64,000 nt of DNA from a virus. Location: the IMG/VR virus record IMGVR_UViG_3300005841_000936, positions 17,560-81,559 of that record; one strand, 5' to 3'. Every line of letters starts with the position of its first letter. The first letter of the stretch is position 1. Positions 38,552 through 63,200 of the stretch are shown here, in pieces. The position numbers and the translations under genes are program-made. Under the pieces are notes generated by a model. The model did not search any database, had not been told where the DNA came from, and saw only the letters and a program-made list of their open reading frames with translations.

Positions 38552-38814
38552 TCGAAATCCAACACATGCTCGTGCTGTCCACGGCACACCTCACCGACAA
38601 TACATGCAATACATTTCTGCCGAGTTACGAGGGTCCGGTCTGGCAGAAGAGTGAGTACGGTTATTTCGTCTACGTCCAGGATGATGATCTTTACGGTGAT
38701 CTTCCCCAGGATCTGATCGACTGTTTTGAATTTGCCCGACAGTACCAGTGCGGCTGGATCATGTTCGACCGCGACGGTCCGACTGTTTCGACTTTGTCGG
38801 AGTATGAGTGGTGA
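38548..38814 (+). CDS. Small hypothetical protein
   Basis: This 88-residue protein reads MIEIQHMLVLSTAHLTDNTC, then YFVYVQDDDLYGDLPQDLID. It resembles phage proteins with a C-terminal CGWIMFDRDGP turn. It is coupled at both ends. The role is unknown. Confidence 0.45.
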   Translation: MIEIQHMLVLSTAHLTDNTCNTFLPSYEGPVWQKSEYGYFVYVQDDDLYGDLPQDLIDCFEFARQYQCGWIMFDRDGPTVSTLSEYEW

Positions 38815-39311
38815 TCTTCTACGACGCCGCCGGCACTCTTGTCGCCACCCAGGCCGAGGCCAAGAACCTCGATAAGAATTTCACGAAAATCGACATCCCG
38901 ACCGACAAGGAAGGGCTCCTGACATGGATCAACCATGAACGATGGAGGCTCACGCCTTACGGTCAGCCGAATGAACTAGAACCTTATGGGGAGGCTGGTC
39001 GGGACCAGTTGGCTGTGGAGGGTTCGAGTCCCTCCCCTCCCCAACCATTCCTCGGCCAGACCATGGTCGATGAAGGTGGTGCCGCAGAAATGGCGCAGGC
39101 CCTGAGCGAGACTTCGATCGAGGACCAAATCCTCACCCTCGACGGAGCCGAGTTCGGCCGCGTGCTCACGGCCACGCTGGATCGCCTGGGCGAGCTCAAG
39201 ACCGAGGGCTGGGACATGGTCCGAGCCTTCGCCAAGATGCACAAATCTCGAGGCAACCTCGAGCGTGCGATTGGATATTTATTTTTGGAGGCCAAGCCTC
39301 ATGAGGAATGA
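38808..39311 (+). CDS. Hypothetical protein, apparent fusion across a tRNA-like element
   Basis: This is a 167-residue frame with a GTG start. Residues 1-60 look like one small protein (VIFYDAAGTLVATQAEAKNL, INHERWRLTPYGQPNELEPY). Residues 61-79 (YGEAGRDQLAVEGSSPSPPQ) come from a tRNA-like DNA segment. From the ATG at 39063 a separate helical protein follows (MVDEGGAAEMAQALSETSIE, GRVLTATLDRLGELKTEGWD). The frame may be two ancestral genes joined by loss of stop codons, with the element between them. Confidence 0.5.
   Translation: MVIFYDAAGTLVATQAEAKNLDKNFTKIDIPTDKEGLLTWINHERWRLTPYGQPNELEPYGEAGRDQLAVEGSSPSPPQPFLGQTMVDEGGAAEMAQALSETSIEDQILTLDGAEFGRVLTATLDRLGELKTEGWDMVRAFAKMHKSRGNLERAIGYLFLEAKPHEE
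38988..39043 (+). ncRNA. tRNA-like fold lacking an anticodon arm, embedded in a reading frame
   Basis: GGGGAGG (38988-38994) pairs fully with CCTCCCC (39036-39042), followed by A. Inside lie CTGGTC-GG-GACCAG (38995-39008) and a canonical T-arm, GAGGG-TTCGAGT-CCCTC (39018-39034), with the conserved TTCGA loop. At 56 bases it is too short for a normal tRNA; one arm is missing. It may be the decayed remnant of a tRNA gene or attachment site, or a tRNA mimic. Confidence 0.5.
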
Positions 39312-40554: not shown

Positions 40555-42705
40555 ATGCAACTCGCGCAAGAAACGCGGGCAGTAGCCCGTGCTGGCGTCC
40601 TCGAGACTGCCAGAGCCACCATCAAAGCCACGCCGAAGATATTCAACTTCTTCGCTGACTCCACTTACGCCAACAAGCCCGTCGCGATCTGCCGCGAGCT
40701 CGTTGCCAACGCCCAGGACGGGCACACCGCCGCTGGCAAGAGCCACATTCCTGTCGAGGTCTGGCTTCCGACCGTGCTGGATCCAACTTTCCGGGTCCGT
40801 GATCAGGGCATCGGCATGAGCCACGAGTTCATGATGACCCGGTTCATGGCTTATACCGACGGCTCGACCAAGGACAGCGACAATAGCCAGATTGGTGGCT
40901 TCGGTATCGGCTCAAAGAGCCCGTTCGCCTACGTCGATCAGTTCACGATCGTCTCCACGCATGATGGAGTGCGCTCGGTCTACTCGGTGTTCAAGGATGA
41001 AGACGGCATCCCTTCGATCGCTCTGCTCGATCAGGCCAGCACCGATCTTCATAACGGTGTCGAGGTCAGTTTTCCGGTCCAGGAGGACGACTTCCTGACG
41101 TTCGAGAACGCAGCCTTCGAAAGCCTCAAATATTTCGACCCACTGCCGATTATTAAAAATTCGATCGCGGGAGCATTCAAGCTTCCCGATTATGTGAGCC
41201 GCGGCAAAGGCTGGGCGATGCGCCTGCAGTCTGGTCCACTGGCAGTGATCATGGGCGGCATTCGTTATCCCGTTGCCACCGCCAACCTCACGCACAAGTT
41301 CGACTATGATAGCCCGGCGCGCAAGCTCCTGGAATATGGTCTCGATCTGATCCTTCCGATCGGGACCTGCTCAGTCGCGTTGAGCCGTGAAGCTCTGTCT
41401 TATGACGACAAGACAATCGTCGCGCTGAAGGATGCGTGCGACCTCGTGATCGAGGAAGTGGCGGCATCGTTCAGCACGATGTTCGATCACTTCGACACGC
41501 TCTGGGAAGCGCGCAGTGCGCTCTCAGCCGAGACAGCTGACCAATATTCAGCGCGTGGAAAGTTCCTGCTCGAGCATGCTCAGTATCGGGGCCAGCCGTT
41601 TGACGTAAAGGTCATGCCAGCGCATTTGGGCACAACCCAAGGGTGGGACGGGAAACCCGTCAAGATCTTCGGCTTCCAGACCTGGACCATTGACAGCCTG
41701 GCGCAGCGTCTCGGTCGGCGCAGCAGCAATCGCCCGCCCTGCCCTGCTGCAAAATGGGATGACGTGGCAGCGACGCGAGGATTTGATCCCTCGAACGTTG
41801 AAGCCCTCATCATTGACGATCTGCCGCAAGAGGCCAAGTATCGCTCCATCCGTCGGATCAAGGATTTTGTTGACGAATCAGACAACGGAAAGAGCATCAT
41901 CGTTGTTCGACCGAACGAGGCCCGGAACCTAACCGTCGAGCAGATCGTCACCGCATTCGAGAACCCGCCGGCGGACATTGTGGTCCTGACCTCGACGCTT
42001 CCGGAGCCGGAGAAAGCTGTTCGAACACCAACGAACAAGCTTCGGCCTCGAGTTCGGATGTTCACCTACGAAGGGCGATCGAACGGCCAGTATAATAGTT
42101 ATACCGAAGTCGGCAATATCACTCCCGGCAAATACGGCCGGCGTGGGGTAGACGAGATTCCGTACATCAACCAACCGCTCGAAGGTATCTTCGTTGCGAT
42201 GGAGAAGTTTGATCTCCCGTATGGCCTATATGATAAGATGCGGGTTGGCCTCGTGGCATGGAGCGAGCTCTATTTCGTCAACCGCAACGATGCCAAAAAA
42301 CTGGATAAATCCAGGTGGCGTAACTTCTTCGACGTGTTCGAAGACCGCCGTAAAGCAGCTGTCGCAGAATATCCTGAGTTGCCGCAGCGTCTGGCTGTTT
42401 CTAACAGCTCTCAGTTCCAGGATCTGTTTAATTATTTTCGGAGCCATGCTCATCAATTGAGCCTGACACCGGCACAGCAGAAGTCCCCGTTTGGCCGCAT
42501 CCTCAACCTTTACCTCACCTATGTCGAACCACTCACTCATGAACAGCTCAAGCTGGCCAAATTTGTCGAGGCCAAATTGCCGGGCCGTGTGAAGCCCGAT
42601 GAGCTCTTGAATGCTTTCAAAACCAAGCAGTGGAAGGCCGCGCGCCTTCTCGAACTCACCACCAATGGATCAGATATTCCACTGATCCTGGAGAATCTGT
42701 CATGA
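40555..42705 (+). CDS. rIIA: RIIA-like GHKL ATPase
   Basis: This is a 716-residue protein. The GHKL signature is clear: N-box RELVANAQDGHTAAG near residue 47, G1 VRDQGIGM near 83 and G2 GGFGIGSKSPFAY near 112, as in T4 RIIA, MutL and HSP90. In T4, RIIA and RIIB protect infected cells from exclusion and lysis by a resident prophage. The next gene is an RIIB-like protein with four-base overlap, giving the standard pair. This is the first gene after operator copy 7. Confidence 0.85.
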   Translation: MQLAQETRAVARAGVLETARATIKATPKIFNFFADSTYANKPVAICRELVANAQDGHTAAGKSHIPVEVWLPTVLDPTFRVRDQGIGMSHEFMMTRFMAYTDGSTKDSDNSQIGGFGIGSKSPFAYVDQFTIVSTHDGVRSVYSVFKDEDGIPSIALLDQASTDLHNGVEVSFPVQEDDFLTFENAAFESLKYFDPLPIIKNSIAGAFKLPDYVSRGKGWAMRLQSGPLAVIMGGIRYPVATANLTHKFDYDSPARKLLEYGLDLILPIGTCSVALSREALSYDDKTIVALKDACDLVIEEVAASFSTMFDHFDTLWEARSALSAETADQYSARGKFLLEHAQYRGQPFDVKVMPAHLGTTQGWDGKPVKIFGFQTWTIDSLAQRLGRRSSNRPPCPAAKWDDVAATRGFDPSNVEALIIDDLPQEAKYRSIRRIKDFVDESDNGKSIIVVRPNEARNLTVEQIVTAFENPPADIVVLTSTLPEPEKAVRTPTNKLRPRVRMFTYEGRSNGQYNSYTEVGNITPGKYGRRGVDEIPYINQPLEGIFVAMEKFDLPYGLYDKMRVGLVAWSELYFVNRNDAKKLDKSRWRNFFDVFEDRRKAAVAEYPELPQRLAVSNSSQFQDLFNYFRSHAHQLSLTPAQQKSPFGRILNLYLTYVEPLTHEQLKLAKFVEAKLPGRVKPDELLNAFKTKQWKAARLLELTTNGSDIPLILENLS

Positions 42706-44116: not shown

Positions 44117-45190
44117 ATGAAACATCGCGAAATTTATAAGCGTGACAGCAAGGGCAGGACCCGCGTGTGGTCCGTTGACCAGGACGGTGACGCTTACCGG
44201 ACCCGTGCTGGCATCCTTGGCGGCAACTTGGTCATAAGCGGGTGGACAACCTGCATTGGCAAGCAAGGCCGCACTGACGAGGAACAGGCCACGTTCGAAG
44301 TCGAGGCCGCTTACAAGCACAAGCTCACTCGTGAATATCATGAGGGTTTGGAAGATATCCAATCCGGCGCCCACTTCTTCAAGCCGATGCTGGCCCAGAA
44401 GTTCGAGGGCTTCCCGGGGCGATGCTACGCACAGCCGAAGCTCGATGGCATCAGGTGCATCGCCACCGCGGCGGGCCTGTTCTCCCGCGAGGGCAAGCCG
44501 ATCACCGCGGTGCCGCATATTCACGCGGCGCTCGACCCGATCTTCACGGAGCATCCAGGGATCGTGCTCGACGGCGAGCTATACAATCACGAGTTCCGTG
44601 AGGACTTTGGTGAGATCAGTTCGATTGTGCGGAAGAAGGATCCTACCATCGAGCAGCTCGAGCGCGCTGAGGCCGTGATGCAGTACCATGTCTATGATCT
44701 TCCCTCGATAGGCGACAACCCATTCTGTACTCGCACGGAAGAACTATCGCGACTGCTTGCCGAGCTCGACTGCGCCTGGATCATCCCGGTGCAGACGGTT
44801 CATGTTGGCAGCGCCGAGCTGCTCGATGAACTCTACGGCCAGTGGATCGAGGCCGGCTGGGAAGGACAGATGGTTCGCCTCGACGCACCCTACGAGCAGA
44901 AGCGCAGCAAGACCTTGCTGAAGCGAAAGGAATTCTTAGATGCAGAGTTCGAATGTGTCGCGATCGAAGAGGGCAACGGCAATTGGGCGGGCGTCGCGAA
45001 GCGCGTCAGCTGCCGTCTTCCTGATGGTCGCATTTTCGGAGCAGGGATCAAAGGCGATCGCCGCCGCGCCGCGGAGCTCCTGAACGAGAAGCACAACGTC
45101 GTCACCGTGAAGTATTTTCAGCTTTCACCTGACGGTGTGCCCCGGTTCCCGGTGGTGACTAAGTTTCACGGTGCGGAGCGGACGCTGTGA
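44117..45190 (+). CDS. ATP-dependent DNA ligase with N-terminal WGR-like segment
   Basis: This is a 357-residue protein. The nucleotidyl-transfer domain has motif I QPKLDGIR with the lysine at about residue 108, motif III LFSREGKP, motif IIIa IVLDGELYN, motif IV EGQMVRLD and motif V TLLKRKEF. Residues 1-80 (MKHREIYKRDSKGRTRVWSV, ILGGNLVISGWTTCIGKQGR) resemble a WGR/DNA-binding module. The C-terminal OB fold follows. It would seal nicks in phage DNA. The neighbouring genes are unrelated small proteins. Confidence 0.88.
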   Translation: MKHREIYKRDSKGRTRVWSVDQDGDAYRTRAGILGGNLVISGWTTCIGKQGRTDEEQATFEVEAAYKHKLTREYHEGLEDIQSGAHFFKPMLAQKFEGFPGRCYAQPKLDGIRCIATAAGLFSREGKPITAVPHIHAALDPIFTEHPGIVLDGELYNHEFREDFGEISSIVRKKDPTIEQLERAEAVMQYHVYDLPSIGDNPFCTRTEELSRLLAELDCAWIIPVQTVHVGSAELLDELYGQWIEAGWEGQMVRLDAPYEQKRSKTLLKRKEFLDAEFECVAIEEGNGNWAGVAKRVSCRLPDGRIFGAGIKGDRRRAAELLNEKHNVVTVKYFQLSPDGVPRFPVVTKFHGAERTL

Positions 45191-61640: not shown

Positions 61641-61837
61641 CAGCTCGAGCGCGCTTCAAGCAATCCGACGTCACCCGTATCTTTCAGGGCGCGGCCAAGG
61701 CAGGCGTGGAGCTGTCACGAATTGAGGTCTGTCCGCATACGGGACGCATCATGGCCTTTACAGGTCCACCAACAAGTGTCACCTCCAATGACCCTGAAGA
61801 GCCAAACGAATGGGACGACGTTCTCAATCTAGGTTAA
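61637..61837 (+). CDS. Small hypothetical protein upstream of integrase
   Basis: This is a 66-residue protein from GTG 61637: TARARFKQSDVTRIFQGAAK, GVELSRIEVCPHTGRIMAFT. The compact DVTR...A...G...R-x-E pattern is common for small proteins placed before phage integrases. It overlaps the integrase start by 28 bases. It might act as an excisionase-like partner, but this is unproven. Confidence 0.5.
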   Translation: MTARARFKQSDVTRIFQGAAKAGVELSRIEVCPHTGRIMAFTGPPTSVTSNDPEEPNEWDDVLNLG

Positions 61838-62964
61838 GCCTCCCGCCGAACGTGACAGCGTACATCGATCGTCACGGTAAGGCTCGATTTCGTTATCGAA
61901 AAACAGGACGACCGAGCTACGAATTTAAGGGCGACCCTGGCACCGCGAAGAATCCGAGCGCCGAGTACAGGGCGCTTGCTGCAGGCAAGAAGCCACAGAC
62001 ACCGGCCGCGCCGCCGGGCACGATCAGGGATCTGATCAACCGCTTCTATAGCACCTCAGCGTTCACTAACCCTGGTCCTGTTACTCATCAGAAAGTGAGG
62101 GCGCGGCTCGAGGCGTTCTGTGCGAAGCACGGTACTAAGCGTGTCACCACCATCCGCTTTAACCACGTCGAGGCGATACTTGCTGATACAGCGAAGCCAG
62201 GTGTTAATGCTGCCGGCAAGCGGATCGGAGGACCTAACGCCGCCAAGAGCCTGGAGAAGGATCTCGTCAAGGTCTTTGACTTGGCGGTGAAGCTGGAACT
62301 GATCAATACTAATCCGGTTCGCCTCGCCGACGGAGTGAAGGTGCCGAAGACTTCCGGGTATCACAGCTGGGAAGAGCATGAGATTGACCAGTTTCGTGCG
62401 AAGTTCCCGGTCGGCACGAAGGGTCGGCTCGCGATTGAGATCATTCTATGGACCCTGCAGCGTCGTGGCGACGCCTCACGCTTCGGCCCGAAGCACCGAC
62501 GCGGAGGAATGATCCACATCTTCATTGAGAAGAGCAAGAAGATGGCATGGCTCCCGGAGCCTCACCAGTTGACTGCTGCGATCGAGGCGATGCCAGCCGT
62601 AGGCCTGACGACGTTCATTGTTACCGAGTTCGGTAAGCCGTTCACCCCTGCGGGCTTCGGCAACTGGTTCCGTGATCGCTGTGATGAAGCCGGCCTACCA
62701 CACTGCTCGGCTCACGGATTGCGCAAGGCTACGGCTCGTCGTCTTGCCGAGCTCGGCGCCAGCCAGCAGCAGCTTAAGGCGGCGGGCAGTTGGGCCGGGG
62801 ATAAGGAAGTCACTACATATACCGCTGCAGCCGACCAGAAGCGACTAGCTGACCAAGCCATGACCGACCTCTCCGCACGGGAAAATCAGCTTGGCGAGGT
62901 TCGACAAATAGAACAGGCCCCCGAGGGAGATCAGGAGGTGTTTCAGGCAGGTTCGACAAAGTAA
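61810..62964 (+). CDS. int: Tyrosine recombinase (integrase)
   Basis: This is a 384-residue protein. The N-terminal arm-binding part includes DRHGKARFRYRKTGR. The core-binding helical domain runs from about residues 55 to 175. The catalytic domain has Arg in LWTLQRRGDASR near residue 218, HGLRKATARR (H302, R305), GSWAGDK and the nucleophilic Tyr in VTTYTAAAD near residue 337. It integrates and excises phage DNA, so the phage is, or was, temperate. The gene ends about 22 bases before a terminator at the phage/host junction. Confidence 0.9.
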   Translation: MGRRSQSRLSLPPNVTAYIDRHGKARFRYRKTGRPSYEFKGDPGTAKNPSAEYRALAAGKKPQTPAAPPGTIRDLINRFYSTSAFTNPGPVTHQKVRARLEAFCAKHGTKRVTTIRFNHVEAILADTAKPGVNAAGKRIGGPNAAKSLEKDLVKVFDLAVKLELINTNPVRLADGVKVPKTSGYHSWEEHEIDQFRAKFPVGTKGRLAIEIILWTLQRRGDASRFGPKHRRGGMIHIFIEKSKKMAWLPEPHQLTAAIEAMPAVGLTTFIVTEFGKPFTPAGFGNWFRDRCDEAGLPHCSAHGLRKATARRLAELGASQQQLKAAGSWAGDKEVTTYTAAADQKRLADQAMTDLSARENQLGEVRQIEQAPEGDQEVFQAGSTK

Positions 62965-63026: not shown

Positions 63027-63200
63027 TTATTGAAGAGCGCTCTCGACGTCCGTCTTGGCGAAATCCATTCCAGCGTAGCGCAAGGGGCAGCCATGCTCCC
63101 GCGCGACCTCATAGGCGAAGCAGTCGCCGAAGTTCAGACCAGGAATGAACGCCCTTTCCCCCATTTTTGATCTGCATTGCCTCCCCCAAGCGAGTCATTC
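63027..63200 (-). pseudogene. vapC: Truncated vapC (PIN-domain toxin) remnant
   Basis: Read on the minus strand, the last 37 residues run PGLNFGDCFAYEVAREHGCP, then LRYAGMDFAKTDVESALQ. This is the well-conserved C-terminus of VapC RNases. Upstream, one frame over, GGKGVHS resembles the GKGRH segment that normally precedes LNFGDC, so a frameshift or junction breaks the gene there. The first two thirds of the toxin, including most PIN-domain acids, and the vapB antitoxin are absent. It lies between the integrase and the first intact host gene, and may mark the integration site. Confidence 0.65.

Follow-up and report, generated by a model that had tools for sequence, protein, structure and literature searches.

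Hairpins that model the acceptor stem and T-stem/loop of a tRNA suffice as substrates of E. coli RNase P RNA (reviewed in PMC11143913), in Alphaproteobacteria a tRNA-Sec gene has been proposed to lie within the reading frame of selB (PMC8124441), and mascRNA/menRNA (RF01684) are RNAs that resemble tRNAs but have no standard anticodon arm. A further point of comparison is provided by the Sphingobium phage Lacusarx (KY629563.1), where an unannotated tRNA 3'-half lying 0.1 kb after a tyrosine recombinase (L003 5169-5226) is likely the attP of that phage. Here we characterize a 56-nt segment with a tRNA-like fold, located at 38988-39043 on the + strand of a 64,000-nt stretch of viral DNA ("the window"; G000:17560-81559, part of an 81.5-kb virus record), which an earlier note had suggested could be a decayed attachment site, a lost tRNA or a tRNA mimic. 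The segment appears today to be ordinary coding DNA, specifying a hypervariable linker, rich in Gly, Pro and Ser, in a small protein of the phage, and its tRNA look would derive mainly from a 24-nt core comprising a T-arm and 3' acceptor strand.

The virus record is a prophage of Sphingomonas type. Its integrase gene (61810-62964; family PF00589), as distant from the fold as the earlier note had stated, adjoins a junction at which there is no tRNA gene, and is followed in the window by a bacterial PEP-mutase-family gene, for which the plasmid collection offers a protein of Sphingomonas paeninsulae as best match (82%). Between these two genes, at 63027-63193, inspection by eye suggests what may be left of the C-terminus of a PIN domain (VapC-like), with no match in Pfam.

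The fold resides in the linker region of a small phage gene at 38808-39311 (+ strand; 167 aa from a GTG at 38808), whose reading frame does pass through it, as previously claimed. An alternative start at 38811 (166 aa) better fits the M-I/K-F/L-Y of relatives and makes the gene overlap its upstream neighbor by GTGA. The frame is a real gene, having homologs in Lacusarx and at 27 IMG/VR loci; its product corresponds to no family in Pfam or PHROGs. All homologs share a common N-terminal block (TQAxAK..PTDKxGL), followed by a variable linker and then by differing C-terminal ends; in the product of the window gene this conserved N-terminal domain reads TQAxAK..IDIPTDKxGL, and a C-terminal domain follows the linker. 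The element, encoding G-E-A-G-R-D-Q-L-A-V-E-G-S-S-P-S-P-P-Q, lies entirely within the hypervariable linker between the two domains, a region that in relatives is frequently rich in Pro, Ser and Glu. Codon usage within it ranks low (5.6th percentile for this phage) and is typical in both flanks, which favors a tRNA relic. Against a relic, the linker of the nearest homolog (L225) is of about the same length, so that no net insertion is visible, and because Pro/Ser-rich linkers occur at the same place in relatives, C-rich codons would be favored by themselves. Among the 27 homologous loci we found no comparable T-arm-like hairpin, no conservation of the fold and no covariation. Members of the gene family adjoin recombinases at L003 (Lacusarx), L230 and L237; this adjacency is not general, and was rejected as a trait of the family.

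Read 5' to 3', the segment is composed of GGGGAGG-CTGGTCGGGACCAG-TTGGCTGT-GGAGGG-TTCGAGT-CCCTCC-CCTCCCC-A. Its MFE structure contains exactly the helices of an outer 7-bp stem (GGGGAGG at 38988-38994, pairing with CCTCCCC at 39036-39042), of a 5-bp hairpin with a 4-nt loop (CTGGT-CGGG-ACCAG, 38995-39008), which abuts the outer stem and is not D-arm-like, and of a T-arm-like hairpin (GGAGGG-TTCGAGT-CCCTCC, 39017-39035), all on the + strand. The T-arm together with the 3' strand of the outer stem encodes S-S-P-S-P-P-Q; within it lies the 24-nt core GAGGGTTCGAGTCCCTCCCCTCCC (39018-39041). These features bear out several properties originally described, namely a perfect 7-bp acceptor-type stem, a size of 56 bases and the lack of an anticodon arm. 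The hairpin described as 6 bp long has only 5 bp, a sixth G.T pair requiring the last acceptor base, and of the T-arm described as canonical, the arm and its TTCGAGT loop are present but the stem is 6 bp long and the register is off. Because of this 6-bp T-stem, the outer stem pairs one base out of the canonical tRNA register. In canonical numbering the T-stem would be GAGGG/CCCTC and the 3' acceptor strand CCCTCCC, leaving an acceptor of GGGAGGC/CCCTCCC with six of seven pairs. Both the extra T-stem base and the position of CCA, 2 nt too far downstream (CCCTC-CCCTCCC-C-AACCA), argue against a relic; there are no U8/A9-like linker bases 5' of the hairpin and no D-arm.

An intact or pseudo tRNA was rejected for this position: the element was not called by ARAGORN, and a search of the whole 81.5-kb record with RF00005 gave no match at E<=10. 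When the fold is held against tRNA architecture, a T-arm is present with its register off by one base, D-arm and anticodon arm are missing, and U8, A14, G18G19 and a CCA at discriminator+1 are likewise lacking. No tRNA model of Rfam accepts the element. In a permissive Rfam scan the tRNA-Sec model (RF01852) scored 19.6 bits against a gathering score of 47, its alignment omitting the greater part of the D and anticodon region, and a human miRNA model scored higher on the same bases (22.7 bits). The only part of the window matched by a covariance model constructed from 20 phage tRNAs lacking the anticodon arm (R2) was the T-arm, at 39018-39034 (17.5 bits; E 0.001 per window, E-values from such short-calibrated models being rough), which favors a relic. 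A second model (R1) scored 20.4 bits on the element but does not serve as main evidence, since some of its training sequences, all of them left out of R2, had been gathered with the element's own T-arm pattern.

The fold energy of the segment is unremarkable (z = -1.23). We therein distinguished energy from arrangement by means of a descriptor specifying a T-arm with a TTCRANY loop plus a 7-bp acceptor and, optionally, a 5-bp hairpin, applied to dinucleotide shuffles of the window. T-arm and acceptor together arose in 8 of 3784 shuffles (about 0.002 expected per window), and the arrangement with the additional hairpin in none of the 3784; synonymous recoding of the gene produced the arrangement in 26 of 265,863 instances. 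Applied to real sequence (about 1.9 Mb), the descriptor matched, beyond the genes called by ARAGORN, only two places, both of them tRNA genes overlooked by that program. The arrangement is therefore rarer than chance for one window, though the descriptor was defined post hoc, after the element had been seen, and the finding was itself selected for its tRNA look. The element is more than an average coincidence.

Interrogation of 2.9 million viral contigs (IMG/VR) with the 23-nt pattern GAGGGTTCGANTCCCTCCCCTCC retrieved four places, all four of them in tRNA genes, a distribution that favors a relic. Two carry the identical 24 nt of the core, as the 3' ends of tRNA genes in L301 and L303; another belongs to the tRNA-Trp of G024, which is related to the prophage by its DNA polymerase. 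The bare 13-mer GGGTTCGANTCCC, for which about 0.01 occurrences are expected per window by chance, also counts toward a relic: in 1.18 Mb of viral loci it occurs outside tRNA or tRNA-half contexts essentially once, the single clear chance match being in the relative L293, and its reversed control gave 0 matches. In phage DNA, then, the motif comes close to being diagnostic of an origin from tRNA. Across a 903-kb survey of phage loci the stronger T-arm matches were all tRNA genes or tRNA 3'-half attachment sites, as were nearly all weaker matches down to 14 bits; the tRNA 3' halves of this survey, unlike the element, have CCA at its canonical place, and none of those read lay inside a conserved gene, points that speak against tRNA descent of the element. 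A scan of a genome collection for the 3' pattern returned, among the matches listed, Chloroflexi tRNA genes, nearly all of them tRNA-Ser. Related structures were encountered along the way. A tRNA 3'-half with CCA at L304 1570-1582 (G034:57069), in a phage with no tRNA gene by RF00005, is a likely attP; a Streptomyces plasmid (NZ_CP117710.1; L217 504-516) carries GGAGGGTTCGACTCCCTCCCCTCCCACCACCA, the 3' end of a tRNA for which ARAGORN calls no gene; and a relative contains the 5' half of a gene resembling tRNA-Leu(UAA), also not ARAGORN-called, at L212 1501-1575 (G001:22744-22818; RF00005, 32 bits).

Similarity to tRNAs is restricted to the 3' portion of the element. No similarity to phage tRNAs exists in its 5' 30 nt (p = 0.65 in the comparison with tRNA-Trp), which argues against a relic, and on this ground full-length descent from the tRNA-Trp of G024 was rejected. 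There is no second copy in the 81.5-kb record, nor any shared 12-mer; with a single copy there and the core found in IMG/VR only in tRNA genes, a repeat family or mobile mini-element was also rejected. Potential sources exist, in that tRNA arrays or tRNA-half attachment sites are present in related phages, four relatives including G024 carrying arrays, and this favors a relic. Counting against one, these arrays occupy a different gene position: in G024, G025 and G026 they are flanked by homologs of the genes at 44117 and 51898, which led us to discard the element as a syntenic remnant of them. One tRNA cluster of G031, situated 3.3-4.4 kb upstream of the homolog of the gene at 40555, is weakly suggestive.

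We tentatively interpret the element as a decayed tRNA 3'-end fragment that was absorbed into a tolerant linker and today codes for that linker only, an assessment in which we place just under even confidence. The core is identical to real tRNA 3' ends, it occupies a linker, and it is absent from homologs; most likely it would be a scrap of such an end, originating either from the core of a tRNA-type attachment site or from a tRNA gene carried in the phage lineage, and presumably captured by recombination into a linker tolerant of any in-frame sequence. Its 7-bp complement upstream may belong to this scrap as well or may have arisen by coincidence. Most likely no mechanism operates at the RNA level, and we propose no RNA function. 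The principal competitor, which we regard as nearly as likely, is pure coincidence, whereby codons for G-E-A...V-E-G-S-S-P-S-P-P happen to supply a G-rich run, a C-rich run and GGTTCGAGTCC that pair in tRNA fashion, with neither ancestry nor function. The ordinary fold energy is consistent with this, as are the human miRNA model that scores as well as the tRNA-Sec model, the silence of RF00005 across the record, the Pro/Ser linkers that are a habit of the family, the missing fold in homologs, and the chance 13-mer match without CCA in L293; moreover, selection by the finder across many windows leads one to expect 1-in-500 events. Coincidence accords poorly with the scarcity of T-arm plus acceptor in shuffled windows and of the arrangement among synonymous recodings, and with identical 24-mers that elsewhere in IMG/VR are always tRNA genes. 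Between descent from a tRNA scrap and chance the balance is close to even, with descent slightly ahead.

The attachment-site interpretation, in which an ancestor integrated in a host tRNA with the core as its 3' half and the site later became part of a gene, is a special case of the tRNA-fragment reading, so that our confidences in the two overlap; taken by itself we consider it unlikely. Arrangements at other loci count in its favor: in Lacusarx, which has a homolog of the gene, a tRNA 3'-half with CCA and the same kind of armless shape lies just 3' of the tyrosine recombinase, and at L230 61-1880 an integrase is succeeded 30 bases on by a member of the gene family and then, on the other strand, by a tRNA-Pro 3' half. 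The element itself is neither intergenic nor adjoined by an integrase, being within a reading frame 22.8 kb from the one present, whose own junction has no tRNA gene. Core identity to tRNAs ends ahead of CCA, no significant match emerged from the plasmid collection, in which a Sphingomonas megaplasmid is included, and no direct repeat representing the other provirus end was found in the 81.5-kb record. The original proposal of a decayed attachment site or lost tRNA finds support for the 3' 24 nt, which match real tRNA 3' ends in phages, and for nothing beyond them; of the two signs named at the outset as telling against it, a lack of any tRNA match is contradicted by the core, yet covariation and conservation are indeed wanting in the homologous loci. 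A working tRNA mimic or a site for RNase P is conceivable but lacks support. RNase P cutting at the 5' end of the stem, so that the message is trimmed or down-regulated, seems to us very improbable, and slightly more so the broader notion of an element lacking the anticodon arm, nested in phage coding sequence, to which RNase P or an enzyme of tRNA maturation would be drawn for mRNA processing or by way of a decoy. The E. coli model hairpins and the nested tRNA-Sec gene cited above provide precedents, and the helices form with probabilities of about 0.7-0.98 in isolation and with 50-, 100- and 400-base flanks. Against these stand the loss of the outer stem and hairpin in 20- and 200-base flanks, the offset register without a proper CCA, and the lack of conservation or covariation in any homolog; the instability in some flanks and the lack of conservation, together with weak Rfam scores, also speak against the mimic suggested earlier. 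Were the element functional, it would constitute a regulatory RNA nested in a gene. As a relic, it would offer another example of tRNA-end DNA recycled in prophages, in this instance as coding sequence in a tolerant linker, and it shows how little surviving tRNA suffices to draw notice.

Among the closest described systems are phage tRNA genes (the tRNA-Trp of G024 and the tRNAs in L301 and L303), with which the element shares 22-24 of the 3' 24 nt; it differs from them in having no D-arm, anticodon arm or 5' sequence similarity. The Lacusarx site resembles it in a GGTTCRANTCC T-arm, a 3' acceptor strand, a short 5' complement and the lack of an anticodon arm; that site, however, is intergenic, beside a recombinase and furnished with a canonical CCA, whereas the element is in frame, far from an integrase and has its CCA displaced. 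The tRNA-Sec of alphaproteobacterial selB is comparable as a tRNA-type fold in a reading frame, with degenerate remnants reported (PMC8124441), but is complete and conserved, while the 56-nt element is non-conserved and below the tRNA-Sec cut-off. Finally, mascRNA/menRNA are alike in overall shape (18.2 bits with RF01684), the element falling below the gathering score of 42.5 and those RNAs being eucaryotic.
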